From a virus, in the IMG/VR virus record IMGVR_UViG_3300032242_002192, positions 1 through 39,036 of that record: DNA of 39,036 nt. One strand, 5' to 3'. Below, in pieces: positions 1 through 24,339 of the stretch (position 1 is the first letter of the stretch; each line of letters begins with the position of its first letter). The notes below the pieces were generated by a model. The model was not told the origin of the DNA. It ran no database searches and saw only the letters and a program-made list of their open reading frames with translations. The position numbers were made by a program, and so were the translations under genes.

Positions 1-114
1 AGAGTTATTGCGAAGTTCTTCCTCGTACTCCTCGATCGACTTGACTAGGCCCATTTTGGCCAACCTATTATGGGCCTCACGGTCCCAATGTTCAAATATT
101 TTAATGTATTTCAT
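1..114 (-). CDS. LRV-type tagged protein, truncated by window edge
   Basis: Only the first 38 codons are present: the start codon is at 114 and the frame runs off the left edge. The visible sequence begins MKYIKIFEHWDREAHNRL and is identical to the N-terminus of the next gene (120-491). It therefore has the short N-terminal tag and the RLxKMGL linker that precede the repeat region in this family. The repeats themselves are outside the window. Function unknown; I place it in the family by identity alone. Confidence 0.75.
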   Translation of the reverse strand, partial: MKYIKIFEHWDREAHNRLAKMGLVKSIEEYEEELRNNS

Positions 115-121
115 CTATTTC
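1..121. repeat. 121-bp exact direct repeat, copy 1
   Basis: Positions 1-121 are identical to 378-498; the two copies diverge at 122/499. Each copy covers the start codon, tag and first ~38 codons of an LRV-type gene on the minus strand. The match may continue left of the window. It reads as a recent tandem duplication of an LRV gene, or an assembly end that stopped in a repeat. Confidence 0.95.
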
Positions 122-491
122 ATTTATTTCTGAGATTTAGGTTATCAATTGCTGGCATGCTAACGATCGTTTCCTCGTCATTAGTGAGTCGAATAAGGAC
201 TCGAGTTGAGGTGTTTGGGTTCCAGGCAACGTTCGATCTAACTCCCCAATAATCGTCATTAGCAAGCATGTCAAGCGTCTCAACTGGAGTGTTTAGATTC
301 TTCGCAACTGCTCGTTTAATGTACGGGTCATCTACTTTGGCCAACTCGGCTAGGATCTCAGGAGGAATATCAGTATCAGAGTTATTGCGAAGTTCTTCCT
401 CGTACTCCTCGATCGACTTGACTAGGCCCATTTTGGCCAACCTATTATGGGCCTCACGGTCCCAATGTTCAAATATTTTAATGTATTTCAT
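120..491 (-). CDS. LRV/HEAT-like repeat protein with N-terminal tag
   Basis: A 123-residue protein. It has a tag (MKYIKIFEHW), a conserved linker with RLAKMGL, then a short helical repeat region. Repeat signatures are VAKNLNTPVETLDMLAND and VAWNPNTSTRVLIRLTND, about 26 residues apart. The pattern VRxxVAxNPNTSxETLxxLAxD resembles leucine-rich-variant (LRV) repeats, which form a right-handed helical solenoid. The C-terminus ends with the family's NLN-basic motif. It overlaps the next upstream gene by 4 nt, so the array is probably translated in a coupled way. The tag resembles T4 capsid-targeting peptides, so virion packaging is possible. No catalytic motif is visible. Confidence 0.8.
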   Translation of the reverse strand: MKYIKIFEHWDREAHNRLAKMGLVKSIEEYEEELRNNSDTDIPPEILAELAKVDDPYIKRAVAKNLNTPVETLDMLANDDYWGVRSNVAWNPNTSTRVLIRLTNDEETIVSMPAIDNLNLRNK

Positions 492-498
492 CTATTTC
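378..498. repeat. 121-bp exact direct repeat, copy 2
   Basis: Second copy of the repeat at 1-121. It spans the start of the LRV gene at 120-491 and the few bases between it and the neighbouring gene. The distance between copies, 377 nt, equals about one LRV gene, as expected for whole-gene tandem duplication. Confidence 0.95.
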
Positions 499-1018
499 TA
501 TTATTTAGGTTAGCAGCTGCTTCCCATCTAACGTGCATGCTTTTGTCTCCAGCAAGCATTTTAAGAGTCTCAGTTGAGGTGTTCGGGTTCCGGGCAATTG
601 TATCCCTAACCTGCCAGTCCTTATCCGTTGAAAGTCGGTCAAGCGTTTCAATTGAGGTGTTCGGATTCTCCGCCACAGTTATTCTAACTAACGTATCTAT
701 GTCACCAGCTAGTCTATCAAGAGTCTCAATTGAGGTGTTCGGATTTTCGGCAACCATCCATCTAACTGACGCTGTCTTGTCTACCGAAAGTCGGTCGAGA
801 GTCTTAACTGGAGTGTTTATATTCTTTGCAACTGACAATCTAATGTACGGTTGCTTGTCCTTGGCTAACTCGTCTAGGACCTCAGGAGGAATATTAGCTC
901 CGACTGGGTTATCTCGTAGTTCGTCCAAGTACTCTTCAGCTGACTTAGCTAGGCCCATTTTGACAAGTCGATTATAGGCCTCCTGATCCCAGTTTTCAAA
1001 AAGTTTAAGGTGCTTCAT
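488..1018 (-). CDS. LRV/HEAT-like repeat protein with N-terminal tag
   Basis: A 176-residue protein and the clearest member of the family. The tag MKHLKLFENWDQEAYNRL is followed by about four 26-residue repeats of the form VRxxVAENPNTSIETLDRLAGD. Repeats two and three are nearly identical to each other at the protein level (VAENPNTSIETLDRL twice). The regularity points to recent internal repeat duplication. It overlaps the neighbouring LRV genes by 4 nt on one side and 14 nt on the other. The repeats suggest a protein-binding solenoid. The target is unknown and there are no enzymatic residues. Confidence 0.82.
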   Translation of the reverse strand: MKHLKLFENWDQEAYNRLVKMGLAKSAEEYLDELRDNPVGANIPPEVLDELAKDKQPYIRLSVAKNINTPVKTLDRLSVDKTASVRWMVAENPNTSIETLDRLAGDIDTLVRITVAENPNTSIETLDRLSTDKDWQVRDTIARNPNTSTETLKMLAGDKSMHVRWEAAANLNNRNR

Positions 1019-1394
1019 TTGATTTAGTTCTACTATTTAGGTTATCAGTTGCTGCCCTTCTAATGTCCGGTGACTTGTCGCCAATCAACCGGTCAAGAGT
1101 CTCAACTGAAGTTTTTGGATTTTCGGCAACCGACCATCTAACGTACCTGTTACTGTCCCTAGCAAGACGTCCCAGAACCTTAGTTGAGGTGTTTTGATTC
1201 TCGGCAGCTGCCTGTCTAACTGCTGGCTGCTTGTCCTTAGCAAACCCATTTAGAATATCAGGTGGAATATTAGCCCCGACTCGATCAGCCATGAGTTCAG
1301 CTAAATACTCTTTAGTCGACCTGATTAAGCCCATTTTAATAAGCCGAGTATGGGCCTCCTGGTCCAATTCTTCAAATAGTTTAATGTATTTCAT
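1005..1394 (-). CDS. LRV/HEAT-like repeat protein with N-terminal tag, first gene of array
   Basis: A 129-residue protein beginning MKYIKLFEELDQEAHTRLIKMGL, then about three LRV-like repeats (VAENPKTSVETLDRL). It is the most upstream gene of the leftward LRV array. A perfect TATAAATA octamer lies 16 nt before the start codon, so the array is probably transcribed late. There is no Shine-Dalgarno sequence. Its divergent neighbour is the polymerase gene, and the ~100 nt between them holds no other gene. Confidence 0.82.
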   Translation of the reverse strand: MKYIKLFEELDQEAHTRLIKMGLIRSTKEYLAELMADRVGANIPPDILNGFAKDKQPAVRQAAAENQNTSTKVLGRLARDSNRYVRWSVAENPKTSVETLDRLIGDKSPDIRRAATDNLNSRTKSNEAP

Positions 1395-3655: not shown

Positions 3656-3865
3656 ATGGTCGTTCAACTCAATCCAACCATACCATTAACTACTCCGTTA
3701 GGAGACGGATTTGCCGTAGCCTTAATAGATTACGGAGAGGACCACGATTTAAAATGGGTCGTTATTCAGAATGGGTCTGGCGAGATCTGGACTTGGAACA
3801 ACTCTAAGGTTCGTGGAATTAAAAATATAACAGCTGACCGAAAGAACATAAGCGAAATTAAATAA
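3656..3865 (+). CDS. Small conserved phage-type protein
   Basis: A 69-residue protein. It starts immediately after the polymerase stop codon and its stop overlaps the primase start by one base, so the three genes look like one translational unit. It contains TPLGDGFAVALIDYGEDHDLKWVV and ends with GEIWTWNNSKVRGIKNIT. This resembles a small, mostly beta protein seen in many tailed phages next to replication genes, whose role is not known to me. I assign no function. Confidence 0.7.
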   Translation: MVVQLNPTIPLTTPLGDGFAVALIDYGEDHDLKWVVIQNGSGEIWTWNNSKVRGIKNITADRKNISEIK

Positions 3866-6179: not shown

Positions 6180-7862
6180 ATGGCCGGCTTTTTAGATAGT
6201 AACCCAATGCGAGGCCTTAGGTCAGGTTTAACCTCACTAAGTCGCTTCGGTATGAAATACGATGACCTTTTAGTTAAGAACTCTCAAGCAATAGGATTCA
6301 TCGAAGGTCAAATGACCAGCTACAACAATTCGATCGGCGATGATCTGATGAAGGCTACGTTAGCTCTTTCGGACACAACGTCTTCCCTAAAGAACAAGTC
6401 GATTGCCTTCTTTCAATTGGATTACGTTGTAAAAAGAGAAAGACTACGTGATCTTGCCTCGAATGGTGAGATTGAATTCATCATTGAAACCATCACCGAT
6501 GATGCAATAGTATACGATGAAGATAATCGATTTTGTTACCCAAATGACCTAGTTGGACAATTGGCATATAGGGGTAAAAACAAGGACGAACGAGTTAACT
6601 ATCAGGAAAAGATCATCAATAAGTACCTTGACAATTTCGAAAAGATCTACAATGCATGGAGCTTTGATAAGGGAATTTCAGCATGGCAGTACTTCTACCA
6701 ATGGTTGATCGAAGGTCACCTTTCCTTTGAAATCATCTACGATAACTTAACCAATCCAAAGGAGATCATAGGCTTTAAGGAACTTGATCCTTCAACCCTA
6801 TACCCTGAGGTTAAAAAGGACGCTGGCGGAAAGATTTACCTACAGTGGGTTCAAAAGGACCCGTTAAATAAGATGAATCGAACATTAACCGATTCGCAAA
6901 TCATCTACATTTCTTACTCAAATGAGTTTAGGACCAAAAGAGTAAGTTTCGTCGAAAGACTATTACGTTCGTTTAACCTGCTCAGGTTAATAGAACACTC
7001 CAAGATAATATGGCACACCATGAATGCTCCGATTCGATTAAAGACGACCGTACCGGTTGGAACGAAATCGATGCAGAAGGCCAAGGAGGACGTTCGAGAA
7101 TTTACCAACACCTTAAAGGAGGATATTAGTTTTGACGGATCATCCGGTGAATTAATGGTTAACGGTAGTCCGAACATTCTATTTTACAAAAACTACGTTT
7201 TACCAAAGAACGATAGGGGCGAATCAATCGAGATTGAAGCACTAGAGTATCCCGGCCCTAACCTATCAGGTTCCGAGCTATTAAAGTACTTTCAAGATAA
7301 GTTAAAGCTTGATTCTAAATTACCTTACTCACGCTGGTCCGAAGGTCAGGGCGCTTACACAATGAACGCTGAGGGAATTTCTCGAGAGGAAATTCGATAC
7401 AATAAGTTCATTAAACGATTAAGATCCGCGTACAAGGAGCTTATTACTAAACCTCTATACCTACAAATGTGCTTGGACGTTAAGGAACTAAAAACCGATC
7501 ATAAATTTCCAAATGCGGTCGGCCTAACCTGGCACGATGACAACGTGTTTGAGGAAATCAAGAACCAAGAATTGCTTAATAAGCGTCTTGCAACCTTAAA
7601 TTCTCTGAAAGCTTTGGTGGATGATGACAATAAATCTTACTTCCCAACCGAATACTTGGTTAAGGAATACTTAAAATTAAGCGATGAGGACTTACAAAAG
7701 ATCCAAAGCTATAAAGCCCTAGCTAAAAACGAACCAGTTAAGGACTCTGGTTCTGGAGGAGGCCAGCCTTCTCCTGGTGGAGCTCCTGCAAATAGGCCTG
7801 CTCAACCCGAGGCGCCAAGCGGAGAAACTTCATCTGAGGTTGGTCAAAAAGGCCAACTCTAG
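6180..7862 (+). CDS. Portal vertex protein (T4 gp20-like)
   Basis: A 560-residue portal protein. Twelve copies would form the DNA-entry vertex of the prohead and nucleate its assembly. It resembles T4 gp20 (524 aa) in its central and C-terminal parts. These include the NAPIRLKTTVPVG segment, the stem-region pattern GELMVNGSP...NYVLPKNDRG, then IEALEYPGPNLSG and the YFQDKLKLDSKLPYSRW helix with ISREEIRYNKFIKRLR. The C-terminus is a Gly/Pro/Ser-rich disordered tail from about residue 515. It is the last plus-strand gene and converges on the gp25-like gene with only 25 nt between stops. Confidence 0.93.
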   Translation: MAGFLDSNPMRGLRSGLTSLSRFGMKYDDLLVKNSQAIGFIEGQMTSYNNSIGDDLMKATLALSDTTSSLKNKSIAFFQLDYVVKRERLRDLASNGEIEFIIETITDDAIVYDEDNRFCYPNDLVGQLAYRGKNKDERVNYQEKIINKYLDNFEKIYNAWSFDKGISAWQYFYQWLIEGHLSFEIIYDNLTNPKEIIGFKELDPSTLYPEVKKDAGGKIYLQWVQKDPLNKMNRTLTDSQIIYISYSNEFRTKRVSFVERLLRSFNLLRLIEHSKIIWHTMNAPIRLKTTVPVGTKSMQKAKEDVREFTNTLKEDISFDGSSGELMVNGSPNILFYKNYVLPKNDRGESIEIEALEYPGPNLSGSELLKYFQDKLKLDSKLPYSRWSEGQGAYTMNAEGISREEIRYNKFIKRLRSAYKELITKPLYLQMCLDVKELKTDHKFPNAVGLTWHDDNVFEEIKNQELLNKRLATLNSLKALVDDDNKSYFPTEYLVKEYLKLSDEDLQKIQSYKALAKNEPVKDSGSGGGQPSPGGAPANRPAQPEAPSGETSSEVGQKGQL

Positions 7863-9036: not shown

Positions 9037-9408
9037 TTATTTTACTTTCGCAGTTGCAGCATTTTTTGCATCTTCGATTGCCTTAGTGAGAGTCGCGATT
9101 TGACTGTCAAGGTCCCTTTTCTTCTGGAGGTACCCTGGATCTTTCTGGTCTAGGTTTTTTAGCTGGATGTTTAGATCATCAATCTTTACTTGATTGTCTT
9201 CGACCGTCCCTTCCATCACTGGATTACTAACCGTTTTTGAGTAGTCTGGCTCATTAACGTCAAGCTTTCCAAGGTTTAACCTTTTGACCTGGTCAATTGA
9301 CTTCTCCATGTGAACTCCATCGGCCGGTTTTACCGATAGTGCCGTTTTTGGGTCGTTTAACTTTGGACCTTTAACGAACGCGTCAAAATTTAAAATTTTA
9401 TTACTCAT
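9037..9408 (-). CDS. Small tagged coiled-coil protein
   Basis: A 123-residue protein beginning MSNKILNFDAFVKGPKLN, a variant of the short hydrophobic-Phe tag shared by many proteins here. The C-terminal half is a predicted coiled coil with QVKIDDLNIQLKNLDQ and QKKRDLDSQIATLTKAIED. There are no cysteines or catalytic motifs. With the tag, its position beside structural genes and the acidic neighbour, a prohead core or internal head protein is plausible. No homologue is recognised. Confidence 0.65.
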   Translation of the reverse strand: MSNKILNFDAFVKGPKLNDPKTALSVKPADGVHMEKSIDQVKRLNLGKLDVNEPDYSKTVSNPVMEGTVEDNQVKIDDLNIQLKNLDQKDPGYLQKKRDLDSQIATLTKAIEDAKNAATAKVK

Positions 9409-9431: not shown

Positions 9432-10040
9432 TTACTTAACCTGGATGTTAGTTGCTGCTTCCATCATGCATTCGGTCATGTACTGTCCGCACTCGTTCAA
9501 GTAGTTCTCATAGGTGTGCATTTCATCATGATCTTCATCGCACATTTGAGCCTCCTTAATTAAGATCTCCTCGCAAATCGTTTTGATGGCTCTTTTGGCC
9601 TCATCTGACAATGCAGGATTATAACCTTCATTCATTGGGGTCCAACATTCATTTATGAAGTTCTCAAAGGTCGGCATTGCTCCATGATGCTCCATTTGGT
9701 CATCATCGTCTTCGTGTTCTTCGTCGTCTTCTTCGTACTCTGATTCGTACTCATCAGTTTCGTCCGACATCATTTCAACCTCTACTGGAATAACGTATTC
9801 ATGTTCTCCATGGTGAGCTATTAACTGGCCCTCGCCATCGTAGTCGAACCTTAGCTCAAGTTCTTCGCCGTCAGCCGTCCTAATTAGGATGATTGCATGA
9901 TCGTCTCCGTGATTGACCATAGATACTATTTGCGGATGAATTTCTTCATCGAGGTGGGCCTCTGGTGTGCGAGTATTAGCATTATCTGCTTTGTCATTAG
10001 ACATGAATCTCGGTAAATTCCGACGTCCGTATTTTCCCAT
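9432..10040 (-). CDS. Acidic protein with two internal tag-like motifs
   Basis: A 202-residue, very acidic protein. Residues 1-90 form a small beta-rich part. Residues ~92-117 are mostly Asp/Glu. The C-terminal third carries two copies of a peptide resembling the T4 capsid-targeting sequence: PTFENFINEC and HTYENYLNEC. Each ends in a hydrophobic-x-Glu triplet like those cleaved by the T4 prohead protease gp21. A perfect TATAAATA lies 23 nt upstream of the start. Acidity, late expression and cleavage-like motifs fit a prohead core/scaffold component, but this is inference. Confidence 0.7.
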   Translation of the reverse strand: MGKYGRRNLPRFMSNDKADNANTRTPEAHLDEEIHPQIVSMVNHGDDHAIILIRTADGEELELRFDYDGEGQLIAHHGEHEYVIPVEVEMMSDETDEYESEYEEDDEEHEDDDDQMEHHGAMPTFENFINECWTPMNEGYNPALSDEAKRAIKTICEEILIKEAQMCDEDHDEMHTYENYLNECGQYMTECMMEAATNIQVK

Positions 10041-12313: not shown

Positions 12314-12590
12314 GTAGTAATTGATCTATTGTAATCGTTAATTCAGTTCCATCTGATTTACGCCTAATTGTAATTGGAGTTTTTCCTATTACGCATTTGC
12401 CGACTCCTGGTTCTCCTATTAATATTGGATTATTTTTCTTTCTTCTAGCCAGTATCTGACTACATCTCTTTATCTCCTTTTCTCTACCGACCACCGGGTC
12501 AAGCTTACCCTCAATTGCTAGTTGAGTTAGGTCCTTTCCGAACGAGTCCAGCATTGGAGTCTTTGAGGTCTTACCTTGTTGTTTTGCCAT
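12291..12590 (-). CDS. ClpC-type ATPase N-terminal segment fused to split-intein N-part
   Basis: A 99-residue ORF. Residues 1-65 are the start of a ClpC D1 domain ([23 protein letters not shown], then [12 protein letters not shown]). Residues 66-99 are an intein N-fragment starting with Cys1 ([13 protein letters not shown]) and ending at a TAA stop. The usual Clp N-domain that binds adaptors and substrates is missing; the protein begins right at the D1 domain. The intein sits between Lys and Thr of the Walker A motif (GEPGVGK-T), so without splicing D1 cannot bind ATP. It overlaps the following ORF by 23 nt. A natural split or a one-base assembly error are both possible. Confidence 0.85.
12294..12395 (-). 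other. N-terminal part of split intein (34 aa)
   Basis: Begins at Cys1 directly after the P-loop lysine; block A is [10 protein letters not shown]. At 34 residues it is much shorter than the ~100-residue N-part of DnaE-type split inteins. It resembles the atypically split class, in which the break is soon after block A. Confidence 0.85.
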
Positions 12591-15549: not shown

Positions 15550-15822
15550 CTAATTATCCTCAGTATGTGCATCAACGTCATCAGCGGATGCTTCAACGTT
15601 AACCTTAGCTTCTGGATTCTCCGAGTCCAAATCGGTTGGCTCATCCGTTGCGTCCATCATTCTTAGGGATAGCGAATGTTCAGGAGAACCTTCACCATCC
15701 GGGTCCTGAGCTGGCACTGGAGTACCTTCCGCTCCTGGCATTTCCATTCCAGAAGTTTCATCGGACATTTTCTGAGAAACGAATTCGTCAAAGCTTAAAA
15801 TTTTGCTTGCGCTTGATTCCAT
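15550..15822 (-). CDS. Tagged acidic disordered protein
   Basis: A 90-residue acidic protein beginning MESSASKILSFDEFVSQKM, a variant of the N-terminal tag (compare MSNKILNFDAFVKG at 9408). The rest is Asp/Glu/Pro-rich and looks disordered. The codon pattern and a dedicated terminator support it over the alternative frame in the same stretch. A late-promoter-like GATAAATA lies 31 nt upstream. It is a candidate internal head or core protein, by tag and acidity only. Confidence 0.65.
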   Translation of the reverse strand: MESSASKILSFDEFVSQKMSDETSGMEMPGAEGTPVPAQDPDGEGSPEHSLSLRMMDATDEPTDLDSENPEAKVNVEASADDVDAHTEDN

Positions 15823-16846: not shown

Positions 16847-17194
16847 TTAGTAGCTGACGATCTTTGTCCTGAGACCCATCGACTTTGCCAATTGTATCAT
16901 GTGACCGGTTCCCTTACTTTTACCGTCCCAGAAACAAACGCAGGCATCAGCGTTCTGAGCCATTTCCCTATTTCTGATGTATCCGGCTGACCTTCCGTGC
17001 CCTTCCCAATCCGGTCTGAACCTTATGATGTTTAGTCCATGTTCCTCGGCGAACCTTTCTCCGAGAAGATCAGCTCCCCTTGCACATCCTGAAACTATTT
17101 CAAGGTCCGGAACTCGGGCTAGGATCGGTAATGTGGCCTTTAATAGCAAGTCGTAATCTGTGAAATCTCTGCCGCCTGCGATTATCAATTTCAT
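16847..17194 (-). CDS. SLOG-superfamily protein (DUF2493/YAcAr-like)
   Basis: A 115-residue Rossmann-like protein of the SLOG superfamily. Diagnostic features are the N-terminal IIAGGRDFTDYDLL, the nucleotide-binding SGCARGADLLGERFAEEHGL, then FRPDWEGHGRSAGYIRNREMAQNADACVCFWDGKSKGTGHMI (split here into several strands). SLOG proteins are proposed to bind or process nucleotide-derived ligands, including signals of defence systems, and are common in phages. The stop is 126 nt from the next gene. The start lies 2 nt from the 3' end of tRNA-Arg. Confidence 0.82.
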   Translation of the reverse strand: MKLIIAGGRDFTDYDLLLKATLPILARVPDLEIVSGCARGADLLGERFAEEHGLNIIRFRPDWEGHGRSAGYIRNREMAQNADACVCFWDGKSKGTGHMIQLAKSMGLRTKIVSY

Positions 17195-17196
17195 TG

Positions 17197-17270
17197 TGAT
17201 TCCTAAAGGGTTCGAACCTTTAACCTGCTGATTCGAAGTCAGCTGCTCTATCCAATTGAGCTAAGGAACC
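17197..17270 (-). tRNA. tRNA-Arg(UCG)
   Basis: A cloverleaf can be folded on the minus strand: acceptor GGTTCCT/AGGAATC, anticodon stem GCTGA/TCAGC around CTTCGAA (anticodon TCG), T-loop TTCGAAC. CCA is not encoded. Confidence 0.9.
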
Positions 17271-17271
17271 A

Positions 17272-17356
17272 TGGTGACCTTATCCGGACTCGAACCGGAA
17301 CGTCTTTCAACACAGCGACCTCAACGCTGCGTGTCTACCAATTCCACCATAAGGCC
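17272..17356 (-). tRNA. tRNA-Leu(GAG)
   Basis: Class II tRNA with a long variable arm. Acceptor GGCCTTA/TAAGGTC, anticodon stem CAGCG/CGCTG around TTGAGGT (anticodon GAG). CCA is encoded. Confidence 0.9.
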
Positions 17357-17360
17357 ATTG

Positions 17361-17717
17361 TTAATCCTCCTTCCTGGAGGAATTTAGGAGCAACCTGATT
17401 TGAGCTCCCAACTCTACATCATTTGGATACTGCTTTGCCAAAGCCCTAACGTCAATTTCCTTGGCGAATAATTTATCCATGTATTCTATGGTTCCAGCCG
17501 ATAGCCCCTCAATTTCGGGTGAGTCCGCATCAAATGCGATTGCCCAACCCAGGTCCATTACTGCCATTAGAATGATCAGGGTCGGATGCACAGGTTGATT
17601 GGCCTCATCGAACTTTAACCTGTCATACTGGATCACCGAACCTTCCAATAACTTTAGCAATGCCTGTTCAGCTGTCATTTTGCTGGTAATGAAATCGTAG
17701 AATTCTTTTACTTTCAT
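17361..17717 (-). CDS. Unknown phage protein within the tRNA/LRV region
   Basis: A 118-residue protein beginning MKVKEFYDFITSKMTAEQALLKLL. A hydrophobic middle segment (LIILMAVMDLGWAIAF) could be a membrane helix or a buried helix; its flanks are charged. There is no signal peptide. The start MKVKEFYDFI is loosely like the N-terminal tag of neighbouring proteins, but without a following hydrophobic-x-Glu. Function unknown. Confidence 0.6.
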   Translation of the reverse strand: MKVKEFYDFITSKMTAEQALLKLLEGSVIQYDRLKFDEANQPVHPTLIILMAVMDLGWAIAFDADSPEIEGLSAGTIEYMDKLFAKEIDVRALAKQYPNDVELGAQIRLLLNSSRKED

Positions 17718-17723
17718 ATTATT

Positions 17724-18335
17724 TTATCTATTTTCGTACATGCTTGTTAATGAAGTTCTCGCCGCTGCCTGCGCAACGTCACCATTTACATCAAGTTTTA
17801 GCTTAGCTAGGACCTCATCTTGCACGTTTGGATTCATAGCGACGGCCTTTCTAATGCTAGCTGCTTTAGCTTGAGATAATTTAGCTAAAGTATCAGCAGA
17901 GCAGTTAGGGTTACCGGCAACCGCCACGTAAACCCATTCTCGTTGACCTTCGATTATCCGAGCTAGAGTAGTTGCTGGCGTGCTTGGATTTGAGGCGACT
18001 GCCATTCTAGCTCCTATTACGTCAGATTCGGCCAACCTATCCAAAATATCAATTGGACAGTTTGGATTTCCGGCAATCGCGTAAGTAACTGTGTCGTGTG
18101 AATTGCTACCTTCTAACCTTCTCAAAGTTTCAACTGGCGTGTTTTTGTGCGCGGCGACTCGTTGTCTAACTATTGTAAACATGCTATTTGCTAATTCATT
18201 CAGCACGTACTCTGGGACGTTCGGTGAGTAATATTCTCGTAGGTCGTCCTCCCATTCAAGGATTGACTTGATTAGCCCCATTTTTATTAGCCTATCATGA
18301 GTCTCGGAATCAATTTCTGTATGAGAATCTTTCAC
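17724..18335 (-). CDS. LRV/HEAT-like repeat protein lacking the usual tag
   Basis: About 203 residues if translation starts at GTG 18335. It has the family linker THDRLIKMGLIKSILEWEDDL and then five or more LRV-like repeats (VAAHKNTPVETLRRL, IAGNPNCPIDILDRL, VASNPSTPATTLARI). The usual MKHLKLFENW tag is absent. The open frame continues to an ATG at 18383, but that codon lies inside tRNA-Arg(ACG), so a start there is unlikely. The gene probably lost its 5' end by recombination with the tRNA region, or uses the GTG. Expression is uncertain. Confidence 0.65.
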   Translation of the reverse strand: MKDSHTEIDSETHDRLIKMGLIKSILEWEDDLREYYSPNVPEYVLNELANSMFTIVRQRVAAHKNTPVETLRRLEGSNSHDTVTYAIAGNPNCPIDILDRLAESDVIGARMAVASNPSTPATTLARIIEGQREWVYVAVAGNPNCSADTLAKLSQAKAASIRKAVAMNPNVQDEVLAKLKLDVNGDVAQAAARTSLTSMYENR

Positions 18336-18350
18336 TTGATTTGATCTTAG

Positions 18351-18422
18351 CGCTCCCACTACGACTCGAACGTAGATTACCAATTTCGTAGACTGACGTT
18401 CTATCCATTGAACTATGGGAGC
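18351..18422 (-). tRNA. tRNA-Arg(ACG)
   Basis: Acceptor GCTCCCA/TGGGAGC, D-stem GTTC/GAAC, anticodon loop CTACGAA (anticodon ACG), T-loop TTCGAGT. No encoded CCA. Its 3' part overlaps the longest reading of the LRV frame. Confidence 0.88.
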
Positions 18423-18464
18423 GAATTTTATCTTAAACCTATTGTACCAACTGGAGGTTAAATG

Positions 18465-18537
18465 TGACCGTGCTAGGACTCGAACCTAAACTAGGAATTT
18501 AGAAGATTCCTGTGCTGTCCAATTACACCACACGATC
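18465..18537 (-). tRNA. tRNA-Arg(UCU)
   Basis: Acceptor GATCGTG/CACGGTC, anticodon stem GGAAT/ATTCC around CTTCTAA (anticodon TCT), T-loop TTCGAGT. No encoded CCA. Confidence 0.9.
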
Positions 18538-18549
18538 AATTGTTCGCGG

Positions 18550-18634
18550 CGGAGAGCAGAGTACTCGAAACTCAACCAACTTAACGATCCGCTCGCTTAG
18601 CAGGCGGCGATGAATCCCATTCATTTTACTCTCC
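18550..18634 (-). tRNA. tRNA-Ser(GCU), structurally unusual
   Basis: Acceptor GGAGAGT/GCTCTCC with discriminator G, and a characteristic serine anticodon loop CTGCTAA (anticodon GCT). The D-arm is odd (ATGAAT-GGG-ATTCAT) and the anticodon stem has two mismatches. It may be a divergent functional tRNA or a decaying one. No exact CCA (CCG follows). Confidence 0.65.
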
Positions 18635-18642
18635 ATTTTAAG

Positions 18643-18728
18643 TATCTCGGGTGGGACTCGAACCCACACGACCATCACTGATCACCAGGGCTTAAACCTG
18701 GCGTGCCTACCAATTCCACCACCGAGAC
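18643..18728 (-). tRNA. tRNA-Leu(UAA)
   Basis: Class II. Acceptor GTCTCGG/CCGAGAT, anticodon stem CCAGG/CCTGG around TTTAAGC (anticodon TAA), long variable arm, T-loop TTCGAGT. No encoded CCA. Confidence 0.9.
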
Positions 18729-18731
18729 ATG

Positions 18732-18816
18732 TGGTACCCAAGACAGGACTCGAACCTGCATGACCGAAGTCACTCGCTCCTAAGGCGAGCGTGTCTACCA
18801 GTTCCACCACTTGGGC
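18732..18816 (-). tRNA. tRNA-Leu(UAG), copy 1
   Basis: Class II. Acceptor GCCCAAG/CTTGGGT, anticodon stem CTCGC/GCGAG around CTTAGGA (anticodon TAG). CCA is encoded. A second Leu(UAG) lies at 26742-26822. Confidence 0.9.
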
Positions 18817-18826
18817 ATTTTTATTG

Positions 18827-18899
18827 GGAGACAAACGAGAATCGAACTCGCATTAACAGATTCACAATCTGACGTGTTAACCCTTACACTATTGCCTCC
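18827..18899 (-). tRNA. tRNA-His(GUG)
   Basis: Acceptor GAGGCAA/TTGTCTC with an encoded extra G at -1 opposite discriminator C, the hallmark of tRNA-His. Anticodon loop TTGTGAA (anticodon GTG). No encoded CCA. Confidence 0.9.
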
Positions 18900-18915
18900 A
18901 TGTGCATTACTTAAC

Positions 18916-19000
18916 TGGCGGAGAGCTGAGGTATCGATCCCCATACGTGAGTACCACATGTTTTCAAGACAAGGTTGCAGGCCACTGCAATTAACTCTCC
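18916..19000 (-). tRNA. tRNA-Ser(UGA)
   Basis: Class II. Acceptor GGAGAGT/GCTCTCC, discriminator G, encoded CCA. Anticodon loop CTTGAAA (anticodon TGA). The D-arm TTGCA-GTGGCC-TGCAA has a short loop, as in the neighbouring Ser(GCU). Confidence 0.85.
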
Positions 19001-19007
19001 AATTCTG

Positions 19008-19078
19008 AGGCTGATGTAGGATTCGAACCTACGTAGGAGGTTTTGCAGACCTCCGCCTAGCCACTCGGCCAACCAGCC
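19008..19078 (-). tRNA. tRNA-Cys(GCA)
   Basis: Acceptor GGCTGGT/ATCAGCC, discriminator T, anticodon stem GAGGT/ACCTC around CTGCAAA (anticodon GCA), T-loop TTCGAAT. First tRNA of the cluster in transcription order. Confidence 0.9.
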
Positions 19079-19275: not shown

Positions 19276-19815
19276 TTATTGCAGGTCCATTATTGTGACG
19301 TACTCTTCTTCATTTTCGCCGATCACTCGACGTCCGAATCTAGTCCAATTGTCAATGTTATGAAGACCCTTAAGGTGTCTACCCCAAACGTAATCATACG
19401 GCATTGAAAGTGGAACGTCTCTCATTAATTTACCTATTCCAGCACCTCGATATTCCGGTAAAAGTGCAAGCCCAAGACCCTGTAATCCTCTTAGCCCATC
19501 GTATTTAGAATAATCTTCAAGAGCACAACTGCACTCGTCTAACATTGATGAAACTGGATCTTCATTGAATAGATAACAACTAATTACTTTGTTGCCGATC
19601 ATGCACTTTTTTGAAATGCTCCAATCGGTATTAGCTCCAAGGTATTCTCTAATTCCATCGGGCGTGTCAACGTCACTAAATACATCAACGCATATTTCAA
19701 TAATTTCAGGTATGTCTTCTTTCTCGATAGGCGAAATGATCGGTCTCTCTGAGTGAAAGTCCTCATTAATTGAACTATTGTTGACAAATTCTGTGAATCT
19801 AAGTAGTTTTATCAT
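19276..19815 (-). CDS. Tagged GNAT acetyltransferase, alternative internal start
   Basis: In-frame internal reading of the preceding ORF, starting at ATG 19815 (179 codons). The N-terminus MIKLLRFTEFVNNSSINED has the same form as other tags in this window (hydrophobic-Phe-x-x-Phe-Val-Asn, then I-N-E). A perfect TATAAATA lies 69 nt upstream inside the coding sequence. The product would be a stand-alone GNAT, transferring an acetyl group from acetyl-CoA to an unknown amine substrate. Whether this start is used is inferred. Confidence 0.5.
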   Translation of the reverse strand: MIKLLRFTEFVNNSSINEDFHSERPIISPIEKEDIPEIIEICVDVFSDVDTPDGIREYLGANTDWSISKKCMIGNKVISCYLFNEDPVSSMLDECSCALEDYSKYDGLRGLQGLGLALLPEYRGAGIGKLMRDVPLSMPYDYVWGRHLKGLHNIDNWTRFGRRVIGENEEEYVTIMDLQ

Positions 19816-20790
19816 TATATTTTCATTTACTTTTTCTAACGAAACGTAACCTTCTTTACCTTGGTCTTCGTTGAGTATGCGATTATTTATATTTGCTGCA
19901 GTTGCAAGTCTTTCACGAATTCCTCTAAGATCTCTAGCATCCTCGTCCTCGTCTTCGTCTTCCGGTGAATCCTCTCCGGCATCAACGATTCGGTCAATGA
20001 CTAGCGCAATCGCTTCAGTTGACTGATACCCGATGGTTATAGGACCGTCAGATATAAACGATTCAAGATAGGATACTAAGTGTTCACCGATTGCATCCGG
20101 TGAAACCAGCTCGCTTAGCTCGTGTTCGTCGATGTTAACGTCTAAGTACTCTGTTGTGTTTAAATTTATGTCACTATTTCTTACGGATACTTCATACGAG
20201 TCAGTCCCAGATTTTAGGTCAAGAGTAAGAGAAACTGTAAAGTGGTACTTGTCATAAGCTTTAATTCCAATCCCGACGAAAGAGTCTCCTCTTAACGTGT
20301 AATCGGTTTTTACCTTGAATACTAAATTAACCGGATCACATTTAACTAGATGTATCTCATCAAGAGACCTAGCAATTGCAGCCTTGATGCCAGCTTCGTA
20401 ATTTGGAACAATTCCCATCCTAGTCAATCGATTTATGTGATCGTCGTTCGTATTTTCAGTAATGATAATGGTGTCATCACTTGAGAGTCGATCTAACACA
20501 TCAGCTCGAATATTAGGATTTTGAGACACGGTACTTCTAATTGGAGGAGTTGATGTTGCTATTCTGTCTAATGCACCTGGGCTTGAGTTGGGATGTTTCG
20601 CAACAATCCATCTAACTAAAAAGTCTTCACTTTTTTCTAATTGATTCAGTACATGTGTTGGTACCTCAGTCTTTACGCCGGTCTCCGTTAGTTCCCTTTC
20701 CCAGTCTTTAAGCGACTTGGTTAGGCCCATTCTGACCAAGTTATCATGGACATCTTGATCCCAGTCTTCAAATATTTTCAGGTGTTTCAT
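19276..20790 (-). CDS. Tagged LRV protein fused to a tagged GNAT-type acetyltransferase
   Basis: A 504-residue ORF. Parts in order are: tag MKHLKIFEDWDQDVHDNL; two or three LRV-like repeats to residue ~110; a second linker-like copy (HINRLTRMGIVPNYEAGIK) and a beta-rich unknown domain to ~270; an acidic stretch (SPEDEDEDEDARD); then a second tag at residue 326 (MIKLLRFTEFVNN) followed by a GNAT domain. The GNAT acetyl-CoA loop is GLGLALLPEYRGAGIG. The second tag and a TATAAATA before it indicate that two genes were fused, or that the GNAT is also made alone. It overlaps the upstream LRV gene by 23 nt. Confidence 0.8.
   Translation of the reverse strand: MKHLKIFEDWDQDVHDNLVRMGLTKSLKDWERELTETGVKTEVPTHVLNQLEKSEDFLVRWIVAKHPNSSPGALDRIATSTPPIRSTVSQNPNIRADVLDRLSSDDTIIITENTNDDHINRLTRMGIVPNYEAGIKAAIARSLDEIHLVKCDPVNLVFKVKTDYTLRGDSFVGIGIKAYDKYHFTVSLTLDLKSGTDSYEVSVRNSDINLNTTEYLDVNIDEHELSELVSPDAIGEHLVSYLESFISDGPITIGYQSTEAIALVIDRIVDAGEDSPEDEDEDEDARDLRGIRERLATAANINNRILNEDQGKEGYVSLEKVNENIMIKLLRFTEFVNNSSINEDFHSERPIISPIEKEDIPEIIEICVDVFSDVDTPDGIREYLGANTDWSISKKCMIGNKVISCYLFNEDPVSSMLDECSCALEDYSKYDGLRGLQGLGLALLPEYRGAGIGKLMRDVPLSMPYDYVWGRHLKGLHNIDNWTRFGRRVIGENEEEYVTIMDLQ
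19884..19891 (-). promoter_or_regulatory. T4-type late promoter TATAAATA inside the LRV-GNAT frame
   Basis: A perfect octamer on the coding strand, 69 nt before the internal tagged GNAT start at 19815. Confidence 0.45.
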
Positions 20791-21301
20791 TCGGTTCTAC
20801 TGTTCTAGATATAAATCCTTTGTTAATGTTATTTATCATATCTTTAACCTCAGGACTTGTGTTCCGGTTTCTTTTAACCGCCATTCTAACGTAGATGCTT
20901 CTGTCGTTTGCTAACTTCGTCAAGACTTCGGTTGGTGTGTTTGGATTTAACGCGACCTGTTCTCTAACGTCCAAGATCCAATCCTTTGATAATATAATTA
21001 ATGATTCTATTGAGGTGTTGGGATTACTTGCAACTCGACTCCTAACTCCTCCATTATCAACTCCAAATCTAGCTAATTTGTCAAGCGTCTCAACTGACGT
21101 GTTTGGATGATTTGCTATAATTGAATTGTGTGCCACCGAATCTAGCTCGGTTAATTTATCGAGAACGTGACTCGGCACATCAGCAAAACAGTCCTCGATT
21201 AGATCTTGCGTCCAGTCGTCCAGTCGCCTGATTAATCCCATCTTGACCAATCGGTCATAGGCTTCATTTTCTGATAGTTCAAAATCGTTATTTGTGTTCA
21301 T
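20768..21301 (-). CDS. LRV/HEAT-like repeat protein with divergent N-terminus
   Basis: A 177-residue LRV protein. The N-terminus MNTNNDFELSENEAYDRLVKMGL keeps the family linker, but the usual tag is replaced by a polar sequence. About five repeats follow (IANHPNTSVETLDKL, VASNPNTSIESLIIL, VALNPNTPTEVLTKL, VKRNRNTSPEV). The gene overlaps its neighbours by 14 and 23 nt. Several repeats are close copies of those in the next upstream gene, suggesting gene conversion or duplication. Confidence 0.8.
   Translation of the reverse strand: MNTNNDFELSENEAYDRLVKMGLIRRLDDWTQDLIEDCFADVPSHVLDKLTELDSVAHNSIIANHPNTSVETLDKLARFGVDNGGVRSRVASNPNTSIESLIILSKDWILDVREQVALNPNTPTEVLTKLANDRSIYVRMAVKRNRNTSPEVKDMINNINKGFISRTVEPNETPENI
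20830..20837 (-). promoter_or_regulatory. Late-promoter-like GATAAATA
   Basis: One mismatch from TATAAATA, 40 nt upstream of the LRV-GNAT start (20790), inside the 3' end of the preceding LRV gene. Confidence 0.4.
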
Positions 21302-21902
21302 TGATGACTTTCATCCTACGTTGTATTGCTGCATACTTAACTTCATCTGCTGGATCTCCGCACAGCTTATTTATAATTCTAGCCGGCGTGCTAGGATTTT
21401 CTGCGACACTTCTTCTAAGATAAGTATCCCCCATTTTAGATAATGTACTTAAAGATTCTATTGAGGTGTTGGGATTACTTGCAACTCCTCGTCTAACATC
21501 AATGTCCTCGTCAATAGCAAGTCGGTCAAGGGTCTCAACTGGAGTGATCGGATTCTTGGCAACCGTCTCCCTAACCAGCCAGTTCTCATCGGTTGAAAGC
21601 CTATCTAGAGTTTCGACAGAGGAATTAAGATTACTAGCAACGCTAACTCTAATCCATTGATCGGGTTCGTCCGCTAATTTCGCTAACGTCTCAGCGCTAA
21701 CATTTGAATTCTTAGCAATTTGTGATTTAATTAAATTACCTGAGGTTTTGGCTAACTGATCAAGTATGTGGGTCGGTACGTCTGGATTGCTTTCTACGAA
21801 CAGATCATTTTCCCAGTCCCTAATGGATCTAGCTAGACCCATCTTAACCAATCGGTCATGAGCTTCTTGGTCCCAGTTTTCAAAGAGTTTAACGTGCTTC
21901 AT
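21288..21902 (-). CDS. LRV/HEAT-like repeat protein with N-terminal tag
   Basis: 204 residues from ATG 21902, chosen because it begins exactly with the tag MKHVKLFENWDQEAHDRL and lies just past the upstream stop at 21919. The longer frame to 21974 would add 24 residues overlapping the upstream gene. Five to six LRV-like repeats follow (VASNLNSSVETLDRL, VAKNPITPVETLDRL, VASNPNTSIESLSTL, VAENPSTPARIINKL). The tag is nearly identical to that of the LRV gene at 488-1018, about 21 kb away. Confidence 0.82.
   Translation of the reverse strand: MKHVKLFENWDQEAHDRLVKMGLARSIRDWENDLFVESNPDVPTHILDQLAKTSGNLIKSQIAKNSNVSAETLAKLADEPDQWIRVSVASNLNSSVETLDRLSTDENWLVRETVAKNPITPVETLDRLAIDEDIDVRRGVASNPNTSIESLSTLSKMGDTYLRRSVAENPSTPARIINKLCGDPADEVKYAAIQRRMKVINEHK
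21368..21375 (-). promoter_or_regulatory. T4-type late promoter TATAAATA
   Basis: A perfect minus-strand octamer 67 nt upstream of the LRV start at 21301, within the 3' end of the preceding LRV gene. Confidence 0.5.
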
Positions 21903-21918
21903 TAAAGGTCGGTAATGT

Positions 21919-22464
21919 TTAGCTTGGAAAATGAGCGTGTAAAACGTCAATTCTTTCTGAATAGCTAGGATCAACGGTCACCAACAGATCGGTCAATGAT
22001 GCGATCATTGTGACCAGTTCGGAATACTCATCGTATTCTCCGGTTGAATTATCGTTTTTGAACATCGACATCACCTCAATCGTGGTGTCCTGTAGGAAAT
22101 CGTACAGCTTTTCGGCGTCGATTTGTCCCTCAAGTTCTTCCGGTGTTTCAACGTACTCGCACTCGGTTCTTAGGTAATCGTAGTAATCTTGAGCGCTGCT
22201 TAATAATTTAGAGAGCTCGGATCGAGTGTTCCTAACTTTATGGGACCCAATCTCTGTAGAGCTAACCTTTGTCAACGAGGTCAAAGGTACCCTTGCCGTG
22301 TTTTGCTTTGAATTATGTAGTCTAACAGTAGCAATATCTCCAGTTATCTCAACTATCTCTCCAAGACCTCGGTACGAATTGACCGAGTCTCCGACCGATA
22401 GCTCATTAGCCGATCCACCGTCAAAATCAGGTTCAAATTCTTCAAATATCTTAATGTGTTTCAT
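21919..22464 (-). CDS. Tagged protein with small beta domain
   Basis: A 181-residue protein that begins with the tag MKHIKIFEEFEPDF. Residues ~25-70 look like an SH3/KOW-like small barrel (VGDSVNSYRGLGEIVEITGDIATVRL), then helical segments rich in Tyr, Asp and Glu. It carries the tag of the LRV family without any LRV repeat, which shows that the tag is modular. It overlaps the next upstream gene by 14 nt. No enzymatic motif. Confidence 0.7.
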   Translation of the reverse strand: MKHIKIFEEFEPDFDGGSANELSVGDSVNSYRGLGEIVEITGDIATVRLHNSKQNTARVPLTSLTKVSSTEIGSHKVRNTRSELSKLLSSAQDYYDYLRTECEYVETPEELEGQIDAEKLYDFLQDTTIEVMSMFKNDNSTGEYDEYSELVTMIASLTDLLVTVDPSYSERIDVLHAHFPS

Positions 22465-22813
22465 GGTACTTAATTATTAATTCGCCAATTACCTCAATCT
22501 TTCCCATCACCTTTTGAAATGAAATTTGGTCCTTTGCTTTAAATTTATCAAGGATCGAATGTAGTTCATTGTGCAAGCCCTTAAGCTCGACTGCTGATTC
22601 GTCAACTTTGAATTTGCCGGCAGCTGCTTTTTTATAGTAAGGCAATTTAACTTTGTAATGTTGGTACGTAAGTAGAGCATCTCCACCCTTTTTTCTGGAA
22701 TTATCTGTGATCTTGGTCGCGCCCGCTAGTCTATTGGCCGCGAATTCCTCGAATGTCTCAGTTGATCTTGCCTCATTCACCACGTACTGTTTAAAGGAAC
22801 TAATCTTGCTCAT
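22451..22813 (-). CDS. Tagged helical basic protein
   Basis: A 120-residue basic protein starting MSKISSFKQYVVNEARSTE. The tag ends in V-N-E followed by Ala, very close to the T4 internal-protein leader that gp21 cleaves after I-A-E. The mature part is Lys-rich (YKVKLPYYKKAAAGKFKVDE) with a C-terminal helix pair. Basic character fits a DNA-associated internal head protein. Starts and stops overlap the neighbours by 1-14 nt. Confidence 0.65.
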   Translation of the reverse strand: MSKISSFKQYVVNEARSTETFEEFAANRLAGATKITDNSRKKGGDALLTYQHYKVKLPYYKKAAAGKFKVDESAVELKGLHNELHSILDKFKAKDQISFQKVMGKIEVIGELIIKYHETH

Positions 22814-23091
22814 TACGCGTGAGTTGTTGTTGTTGTTGTCGCTCTAGTGGTCGTTGTTGTGGTCGCCGCTCTAGTTGTCGTTGTTGTCGTAGGTGCAGCG
22901 GTTGTCGTGCTAGTCGTTGTGGTCGTAGCACCTCCACCGCCTGATACTGCTGAGCTTGCTGACCTACTTGAGGCCTGTTTAGCCTCCATCATCATTTTAT
23001 TGATTGCGAATTCTCTGCAGTCTTCGTCAAATTTTCGTCTTTGTTCAAGCTGTTCCGGAGTTTCTTCACCCCAGTTAATAAATTGTTCCAT
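22813..23091 (-). CDS. Small protein with Thr-rich low-complexity tail
   Basis: A 92-residue protein. The first ~38 residues are a charged helix (GEETPEQLEQRRKFDEDCRE). After an AS-rich hinge the C-terminal half is almost only Thr and Ala with a few Arg (TTTTTTRAATTTTTTRAT), encoded by imperfect ACN triplet repeats. Such tails can vary in length by slippage. One-base overlaps with both neighbours show tight coupling with the tagged genes. Function unknown. Confidence 0.65.
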   Translation of the reverse strand: MEQFINWGEETPEQLEQRRKFDEDCREFAINKMMMEAKQASSRSASSAVSGGGGATTTTTSTTTAAPTTTTTTRAATTTTTTRATTTTTTHA

Positions 23092-24326
23092 TAGCTGATT
23101 AATTTGTTCTTTTTTGCGATCGTCTTGATCAGGTCAACCGTAAAGTTAGCTCTATCGCCTTTAGGCTTTGCTAAATCTTTTTGGTTTTCTGAGTCCACTA
23201 GTTTCTTTATGGTTTGGTCTAGGTCTAACTTTGAACCTCGAGCAGCATTATTGGCATCCATGAATAGACGTAGTCCACGTGAGGTAATTTCGGCCTGTTT
23301 GGCTTTTGTCGATTCAACAGGTTCCTCTGATTTTGAAATACTTTTTTCAGTATACTGATTACTCTTACTGTACTTAATTAGAGAGTATGTCGAAATGTAT
23401 TTGATATACTCATTTAAGTTTGCGTCATTTAATTTTGAGGTTATGTCATTGACTATTCCCTTTAACGTTGTTCCACCAATTACCATATCATCGACTATCA
23501 TGAAATGCGGTGGTTGTTGTTTAATAAAATTTCCTAGTCGGTTGTATGAGATACTACTGATTAAATCTCGATGGACTTTATCTGCTGATTTGAACGCATC
23601 AATTATATAATCGTCAACATGATGGCCGACGTTCAATAGACGCCTAGATCCTGATCTAAGGCCTGCTGATTTTTTGATGAATCCTGTCCAATCTGTATCT
23701 GGTGAAGTTTTAGCATTTTCTATACCTGGCCAATCTTGAACTGGTTTACCGGTTTGATTTGCCCAATTCATCGCAGCCGGTCCATTCCAGTAACCTACCA
23801 CATGATTTTTTAAATACGAATCTAGCTGCTTTCGTGTAGTCATGTCAGCTTTTGCATAAGCTTCCCAGTTAACTATTGACAGAGGATCAGCATAGAATCG
23901 CTTAACCACGTCTATTACTTTGGCATTTGGGTAGTAAATATTCTTGACCGCTTCTGCAATTCTTAGAGCCAATGGGGAAGACGATCCAGCTGGAATAATT
24001 ACATCGACTCTCTGGCTAATTAACTTATCAGGATAAGTTAATTTAATTAACTTAACTAGTTCGTCATCCGTGATCGTGTCTGGCTTTTTAAGGGCATCCA
24101 TTAACTGAACCTTTTGTGAACCTTCTGCATTCTCCATAGCGTATCCATGGTACATTTTAATAGTTGAACCTTCTACTTTATACGAATTTGAACCGGCAAT
24201 TGGTGCGCTTACTAATCTTATAAGATCGTCAGGCGAGTCCCTATTAAAATCAATTTCAGGTTTTTGATTTATCCCTAATCTTATTCCTTCGTTTACGAAT
24301 TGAGAGAAATCCATTACGTGTTTCAT
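23091..24326 (-). CDS. Tagged phosphoribosyltransferase-like protein
   Basis: A 411-residue protein with the tag MKHVMDFSQFVNEGIRLG (V-N-E followed by Gly). Residues ~106-130 (RVDVIIPAGSSSPLALRIAEAVK) and the PRPP-binding loop at 277-287 (IVDDMVIGGTTL) indicate a type I phosphoribosyltransferase fold. Insertions between them are large, and the C-terminal ~80 residues are Lys-rich. A perfect TATAAATA lies 6 nt before the start, so it is a late gene with a probably leaderless mRNA. A late, tagged PRPP-using enzyme could be carried in the virion. Its acceptor base is unknown. Confidence 0.72.
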   Translation of the reverse strand: MKHVMDFSQFVNEGIRLGINQKPEIDFNRDSPDDLIRLVSAPIAGSNSYKVEGSTIKMYHGYAMENAEGSQKVQLMDALKKPDTITDDELVKLIKLTYPDKLISQRVDVIIPAGSSSPLALRIAEAVKNIYYPNAKVIDVVKRFYADPLSIVNWEAYAKADMTTRKQLDSYLKNHVVGYWNGPAAMNWANQTGKPVQDWPGIENAKTSPDTDWTGFIKKSAGLRSGSRRLLNVGHHVDDYIIDAFKSADKVHRDLISSISYNRLGNFIKQQPPHFMIVDDMVIGGTTLKGIVNDITSKLNDANLNEYIKYISTYSLIKYSKSNQYTEKSISKSEEPVESTKAKQAEITSRGLRLFMDANNAARGSKLDLDQTIKKLVDSENQKDLAKPKGDRANFTVDLIKTIAKKNKLIS

Positions 24327-24331
24327 GAATT

Positions 24332-24339
24332 TATTTATA
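24332..24339 (-). promoter_or_regulatory. T4-type late promoter TATAAATA
   Basis: A perfect octamer ending 6 nt before the start at 24326. It heads the leftward operon PRTase-Thr-rich-tagged-tagged-LRV-LRV-LRV/GNAT. Confidence 0.7.

Follow-up and report, generated by a model that had tools for sequence, protein, structure and literature searches.

An N-terminal tag resembling the T4 capsid targeting sequence on unrelated proteins of large environmental phages

Computational analysis of a 39-kb IMG/VR fragment of a large phage of the T4 superfamily (record IMGVR_UViG_3300032242_002192, all 39,036 nucleotides of which are here termed the window) uncovered a short N-terminal tag shared by proteins with otherwise unrelated bodies. 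The tag stands at the start of eight window genes, every one on the minus strand, and its core takes the form [FY]-x-x-[FWY]-[ILV]-x-E, with S, N, A or G as the usual next residue. Among the relatives of the window, about 5-15% of the genes carry it, and genomes of 250-460 kb have roughly 30-45 tagged genes each. The best explanation, and in our view a quite probable one, is that the tag represents a T4-type capsid targeting sequence, through which tagged cargo would dock on the prohead core, be cleaved, packaged and eventually injected.

The window is placed in the T4 superfamily by a T4-type portal, a gp4-like head closure protein and an Ad2-like neck protein. The nearest named records by portal are the huge phage LR756500 (462 kb, 42% identity) and the Lak phages (34%), and the IMG/VR relatives have portals 84-86% identical to that of the window, on contigs of up to 271 kb. 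The relatives used here comprise six that were read completely or nearly so, a 170-kb relative, a 90-kb relative and 450 kb of LR756500.

The tag across genomes and its counterpart in T4

In the internal protein IPIII of T4 (MKTYQEFIAEA), residues 4 and 7 are reported to govern head targeting and residues 8 and 10 processing by gp21, which cleaves at an L/I-X-E motif, and the two functions are separable (PMC9026906). The conserved positions of the tag coincide with both of these pairs, allowing a targeting half and a processing half to be recognized (MKHIKLFEQFVNEA is an example of the tag). When a matrix trained on one megaphage relative was run on 83 T4 proteins, ipII ranked first, ipIII second and ipI fourth, and the same matrix retrieved none of 55 proteins of the Tenacibaculum phage PTm1. 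A preliminary description of this DNA had proposed a modular T4-type capsid-targeting tag on unrelated bodies; this proposal is strongly supported by the protease association and the late promoters described below, by the retrieval of the T4 internal proteins and by the emergence of the [ILV]-x-E half without selection for it.

The latter point derives from 120 families selected solely on the columns up to the second aromatic residue. E occupies position +6 in 50% of these, its frequency elsewhere between +4 and +12 being 6-14%, and I, L or V occupies +4 in 59%. Of the 56 families whose tag is complete, 41 have S, A, N or G directly after E (background 26%). A processing site of the [L/I]-x-E type, equivalent to T4 positions 8-10, is found in about 56 of 100 body families and in the window genes at 22451 and 23091.

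The weight matrix used for counting was trained on a single relative, G004, and tested on other genomes, with the scores at internal methionines and of composition-shuffled N-termini serving as controls. At a score above 10, the held-out relative G001 has the tag at 34 of 328 gene starts and at 1 of 866 internal methionines (35 tagged starts versus a mean of 3.1 upon shuffling), and the window at 8 of 62 starts versus 3 of 124 internal methionines (8 versus a mean of 0.5). At a score above 12, LR756500, in which the tag takes the form MKYIK-x-Y-E-[ED]-F-[IL]-x-E, gives 36/646 versus 1/1198. A further relative (G016) has tags at 14/208 starts versus 4/741 internal methionines. The N-terminal tag is real and lies far from chance expectation. 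The 177 strictly tagged proteins of ten sequences fall into 100 unrelated body families, and the recognizable domains include LRV, phosphoribosyltransferase (PRTase)-like, GNAT-like, NUDIX, ATP-grasp, MoxR-type ATPase, deoxyribonucleotidase, peptidase and VanY/CHAP versions.

Several other features of the tagged set deserve mention. Behind the tag, 22 of 203 tagged proteins contain a second motif, LxxLG[LFMI], which is present in 17 of 1773 untagged ones and is enriched rather than general; it is seen, for example, in the window LRV genes, G004 137990 and G006 125932. Three tagged proteins (G001 220818-221663, G004 171610-172434 and G009 3749-4594) contain GLGTDEE-like repeats of annexin-like appearance, with no Pfam match at 1e-4, while the tagged product of G001 207120-207671 is 2H-phosphoesterase-like, with weak similarity (24 bits, cut-off 27) to Acb1, an anti-CBASS protein. 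A 68-kb contig picked by an unrelated 15-mer (G049, L480-L483) has the tag at 13 of 61 starts, so that environmental phages may very commonly carry it. Recent copying of tags as DNA was considered for LR756500, some of whose 36-nt tags are up to 100% identical, but their codons at shared residues agree at a rate (0.689) lower than that predicted from codon usage (0.780), which provides no evidence of recent shuffling; in G004 and G006 the rate is slightly above expectation.

Protease, scaffold and late promoters

The preliminary description had called for a search for a gp21-like prohead protease, and such an enzyme is indeed present in close relatives and in a near-identical contig, G017; it was not seen on the 39-kb window fragment itself. 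Peptidase S77 (PF03420, the gp21 family) was detected in 12 of 15 portal relatives and in 23 of 27 contigs, each of at least 100 kb and chosen solely for a tag-encoding DNA pattern, nearly always within an open reading frame (ORF) of 575-750 amino acids (aa). None of eight contigs selected by means of an unrelated 15-mer contains it, although most of those are short.

The remainder of the protease ORF is a scaffold with 14-residue repeats of the form [IV]-x-Y-x-x-[YH]-[ILV]-[AG]-E-[NK]. When copies of [FY]-x-x-[FYW]-[ILV]-x-E beyond residue 20 are counted (H being allowed for LR756500), this scaffold-protease ranks first for internal cores in every fetched relative with a complete copy, and all 20 further scaffolds that were read contain 3-15 copies each. 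Internal core copies are also present in two acidic proteins resembling prohead core components, one of which is encoded by the window (9432-10040), and the N-terminus of the major capsid protein (MCP) has a matching GSINE/S or GAINE/S site. As the tag core resembles one scaffold repeat, the tag probably docks by imitating such a repeat. The exact tag profile was also tried as a means of singling out the scaffold repeats and did not rank them at the top, indicating that the resemblance lies at the level of residue classes.

Tagged genes are further distinguished by their upstream regions. Within the 90 nt preceding the gene, an octamer resembling the T4 late promoter TATAAATA, [AGT]ATAAATA, is present for 63 of 140 tagged versus 177 of 1178 untagged genes (Fisher p 5e-15), and random stretches contain it at a rate of about 1.6%. 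Another upstream motif, TAGTATAA, shows the opposite bias (1/140 tagged versus 74/1178 untagged genes). The earlier observation that late octamers precede many of these genes holds in the window for 1005, 19276, 20768, 23091, 9432 and 15550. With the promoter as a proxy, the tagged genes are predicted to be late-expressed.

Taken together with the T4 precedent, these features suggest a sequence of events in which late expression would produce the tagged cargo, whose two aromatics (F/Y-x-x-F/W/Y) would bind the prohead core built by the scaffold that is fused to the gp21-type protease. The head shell would then close round the cargo, and the fused protease would cut the scaffold, the MCP and the full tags after [ILV]-x-E, freeing the bodies within the head, while tags lacking a good site would remain on theirs. 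DNA would be packaged onto this cargo, which, by analogy with T4, might enter the next host along with it.

Tagged genes of the window

The preliminary description had counted at least nine tagged proteins, in agreement with the eight complete starts and a ninth that is truncated at window positions 1-113 (Table 1); weaker cases are found at 9037-9408, 15550-15822 and 17361-17717. Between 24326 and 19276 the genes follow one another like an operon, either overlapping or abutting, with an octamer at their head, 13 nt upstream of the first gene (23091). This gene has orthologues in two IMG/VR contigs at 65% identity, with the tag retained. Orthologues of 22451 are found in G004, G006, G007 and G009 at 57-66% identity, and those of 21919 in six fetched relatives all begin with the targeting half. 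The N-terminus of the untagged operon member at 22813 resembles a gene adjoining the portal in many relatives, and it is possible, judging from this likeness, that 22813-23091 is a duplicated gene piece.

Table 1. Coordinates of tagged genes and related features of the window
Coordinates	Strand	Feature	Tag or motif	Remarks
1..113	-	Partial tagged LRV gene, truncated where the contig ends		Exact copy of the initial 113-114 nt of gene 120-491
120..491	-	Tagged LRV protein	MKYIKIFEHWDREA	
488..1018	-	Tagged LRV protein	MKHLKLFENWDQEA	
1005..1394	-	Tagged LRV protein	MKYIKLFEELDQEA	Late octamer at -23
6180..7862	+	T4-type portal (phrog_213)		Places the window in the T4 superfamily with large relatives
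9037..9408	-	Conserved protein, weak tag	MSNKILNFDAFVKG	
9432..10040	-	Acidic protein, candidate prohead core component	Internal tag-like sites FENFINE, YENYLNE	Conserved in relatives; late octamer at -30
15550..15822	-	Weakly tagged protein	MESSASKILSFDEFVSQ	G001 and G009 have orthologues; late octamer at -38
17724..18383	-	LRV paralogue without recognizable tag		Listed start overlaps tRNA-Arg(acg) 18350-18422
19276..20790	-	504-aa fusion		Tag and LRV (about residues 1-107), middle domain, scaffold segment 284-323, GNAT-like 326-504
19823..19942	-	Scaffold-derived 120-bp segment		118/120 identical to the scaffold-protease gene of G017 (64227-64346)
20768..21301	-	LRV paralogue without the F..W tag	DRLVKMGL	Following motif kept
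21288..21902	-	Tagged LRV protein	MKHVKLFENWDQE/A	Within ORF 21288-21974
21919..22464	-	Tagged acidic protein	MKHIKIFEEF	Without [ILV]xE site
22451..22813	-	Tagged small basic protein	MSKISSFKQYVVNE/A	Full tag, one-residue shift
22813..23091	-	Untagged operon member	MEQFINWGEETPEQ	Short conserved N-terminus, then Thr-rich repetitive tail
23091..24326	-	Tagged 411-aa protein, PRTase-like body	MKHVMDFSQFVNE/G	Targeting and processing halves present

The window contains seven LRV (PF01816) genes and one partial copy. Six of these exceed the Pfam cut-off (120, 488, 1005, 17724, 20768 and 21288), and 19276 lies just below it (20.1 versus 21.6 bits); the true start of ORF 21288-21974 is probably the internal ATG at 21902. 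The paralogues are about 67-88% identical at the DNA level, with one exact 113-bp copy, and LRV repeats are absent from 15 relatives. The suggestion that the LRV proteins are duplicating is thus borne out as a lineage-specific expansion. Three LRV genes lie at one end of G017, and adjacency of this contig to the window was considered on account of a 111-bp end match; as the match falls within the repeated LRV start, it was not accepted as proof. Searches of IMG/VR with the LRV, PRTase and fusion proteins recovered few or no relatives.

Other claims of the preliminary description held in part. The statement that the bodies differ completely is overstated for the window itself, where five complete tagged genes and the partial one are LRV paralogues, whose dominance makes the set less diverse than claimed. 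A V-N-E or I-N-E before a small residue is present in 22451 (VVNE/A) and 23091 (FVNE/G), and the internal tag of 19276-20790 reads SSINE/D; it is absent from 21919 (FEEFEPD) and from the LRV tags, which keep the F-x-x-W targeting half and have Asp at P3 of the processing half (DQE/A), making gp21-like cleavage doubtful. As for the proposed folds, the LRV repeats, a phosphoribosyl pyrophosphate-binding motif (VDDMVIGGTTL in 23091) and a GNAT motif (RGAGIGKL in the C-terminus of 19276) are seen in the sequence, while the Pfam matches are weak for the PRTase (E 0.011) and the GNAT (E 0.21; PHROG acetyltransferase E 0.014), and the AlphaFold model of 23091 is uninformative (predicted local distance difference test score, pLDDT, 41).

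The 504-aa ORF at 19276-20790 combines several of these elements. A second, internal tag (MIKLLRFTEFVNNSSINE/D) heads its GNAT-like domain, and its middle domain is without relatives. Between the two lies a transplant from the 3' part of the scaffold-protease gene, encoding 40 residues in frame on both sides with sharp borders, and bringing in LNE/D and VNE/N sites, by virtue of which the product may be cut into separate proteins. The LRV family and this fusion would represent recent cargo, made through gene duplication and the insertion of scaffold sequence. We would give slightly less than even credence to a more general version of this idea, in which the tag is a one-unit copy of a scaffold repeat and serves large T4-like environmental phages as a general docking code. 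Under it, the gain of about 13 codons would turn a protein into head cargo, and recombination of scaffold DNA into cargo genes would yield cargo of several domains that can be cleaved apart, the 504-aa LRV/GNAT protein being an example.

Elsewhere in the window, two overlapping ORFs encode a ClpA/B-type ATPase (10181-12590, minus strand) that is divided at its Walker A motif (GEPGVGK/C...HN/TAIVEG). Both sides of the break have intein-like sequence, making this a candidate split intein. Intein-like sequence also interrupts the C-terminal part of a family B DNA polymerase (1496-3655, plus strand) directly after YTDTDS. Eight tRNA genes are clustered at 17196-19078 (minus strand), and 16847-17194 (minus strand) encodes a SLOG-family protein of the YspA type (PF10686).

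Alternatives, significance and known systems

The alternative that survives best, which we nonetheless regard as unlikely, is that tagged proteins stay in the head as structural or DNA-condensing internal proteins instead of being injected as effectors. Consistent with it, small lysine-rich proteins of repetitive sequence are the products of some tagged genes located between those for the MCP and the tail tube; many of the bodies, however, are enzyme-like and strain-specific, as effectors would be. Furthermore, IP1-3 of T4, which share only their leader, are injected and inhibit different GmrSD enzymes or variants (PMC12373910), making counter-defence a reasonable default role for part of the cargo.

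A quite improbable alternative is that the tag is a sorting or docking peptide for some structure other than the head core, such as the tail, the baseplate or a replication compartment. The few tagged bodies resembling peptidoglycan enzymes (VanY/CHAP) and the tail-family matches among weakly scoring tags might point this way, but those matches are weak or represent chance tags. The T4-gp15-like one has no aromatic at position 0, and in the tail-collar one the tag belongs to the domain itself. The occurrence of the tag core in the prohead scaffold and the acidic core-like proteins, together with a protease-type site, and its match to an experimentally defined T4 head signal also weigh against this alternative. 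That common descent alone accounts for the tag, the N-terminus being merely the best-conserved part of one family of paralogues, would fit the similar N-termini of the window LRV genes, but is very improbable given 100 body families without detectable similarity, the diversity of their domains and the match of the T4 internal proteins to the same profile. Barely credible is the notion that the conserved start acts in translation or at the mRNA level, as late leader codons, with the peptide incidental. Tagged genes do have late promoters and many AT-rich starts, but what is conserved is amino acids, at spaced positions reaching as far as residue 13; the codons used for identical residues in LR756500 show no more similarity than codon usage predicts, and E at +6 with a small residue at +7 fits a protease site.

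Several observations do weigh against a T4-type capsid targeting sequence or against parts of that interpretation. About a third or more of the tags, including the window LRV tags, lack a standard [ILV]-x-E, and a few tagged proteins resemble cell-wall enzymes that could instead be tail or lysis proteins. No protease is present in the fragment represented by the above-mentioned 68-kb contig with 13 of 61 tagged starts, and the protease-bearing close relative G017 is a separate contig whose adjacency to the window is unproven. With regard to the scaffold, the tags are mostly F-x-x-F whereas its repeats are Y-x-x-Y/H, the exact profile does not rank those repeats first, and all the scaffolds are homologous, so that the repeat match counts as a single evolutionary observation. 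Structure predictions are poor for both the scaffold (AlphaFold pLDDT 51) and the PRTase-like protein, and the literature searched contains no proteomics on these phages.

T4-type targeting tags as such are known, and the finding of internal protein genes by their leader in T-even phages is established. Our literature searches brought up no paper tying such tags to huge or metagenomic phages. As far as could be found, the scale and spread of the tag in large environmental phages, its match to the scaffold repeat, the many cases in which the targeting and processing halves are parted, and the scaffold segment within a cargo ORF are apparently new. The tag turns the T4 internal proteins into a signature readable from sequence, flagging tens of head-cargo candidates per genome of an uncultured large phage. 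Most of these candidates are without known function, and some are nucleotide-processing or cell-wall enzymes. As IP1-3 of T4 are all anti-restriction proteins, the tagged set may serve as a ranked source of candidate counter-defence or takeover proteins. That dozens of unrelated proteins begin with one label so similar to that of T4 suggests that, in these large freshwater phages, a sizeable and variable set of proteins is loaded into the head together with the DNA. How the prohead core recognizes the T4 tag might be explained by the scaffold-repeat match, a possibility open to testing, and the tag itself could be of use for directing proteins of choice into phage heads.

Among characterized phages, the Moraphages and the bS21 phages, large forms from freshwater, encode a prohead core protease, ClpA and a T4-type portal and MCP (PMC12619734, PMC9723584). 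The window, similar in gene content, probably belongs near them; the passages searched mention neither a targeting tag nor a cargo repertoire. In phiKZ and SPN3US a gp21-like protease cleaves many of the head proteins behind a Glu residue, and these proteins are ejected (PMC5694885), but most of their known propeptides are long and unlike each other, the motif is A-X-E and no short tag is shared. The N-terminal 30 residues of DarB of P1 direct a foreign protein to the head (PMC9024508), but the Dar proteins have no consensus tag in common.

The closest parallels are with T4 itself. As in the gp22/gp21/gp23 system, a prohead core would be cut after [IL]-x-E, and the gp23 site FGSFLTE/A carries the tag core; here, however, protease and scaffold are joined in one protein of 575-750 aa with repeats containing that core, whereas gp22 has no such 14-residue repeats. 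Like IPI, IPII and IPIII, the proteins described here combine a short N-terminal tag with unrelated bodies, a gp21-type protease and late promoters, and agree in the spacing of the two aromatics, the aliphatic residue and the Glu. They differ in having about three more residues before the first aromatic and in many of them lacking the processing half, and, above all, in number, with three internal proteins in T4 and at least ten reported in T-even phages, as against the tens of tagged genes per genome recognized here.

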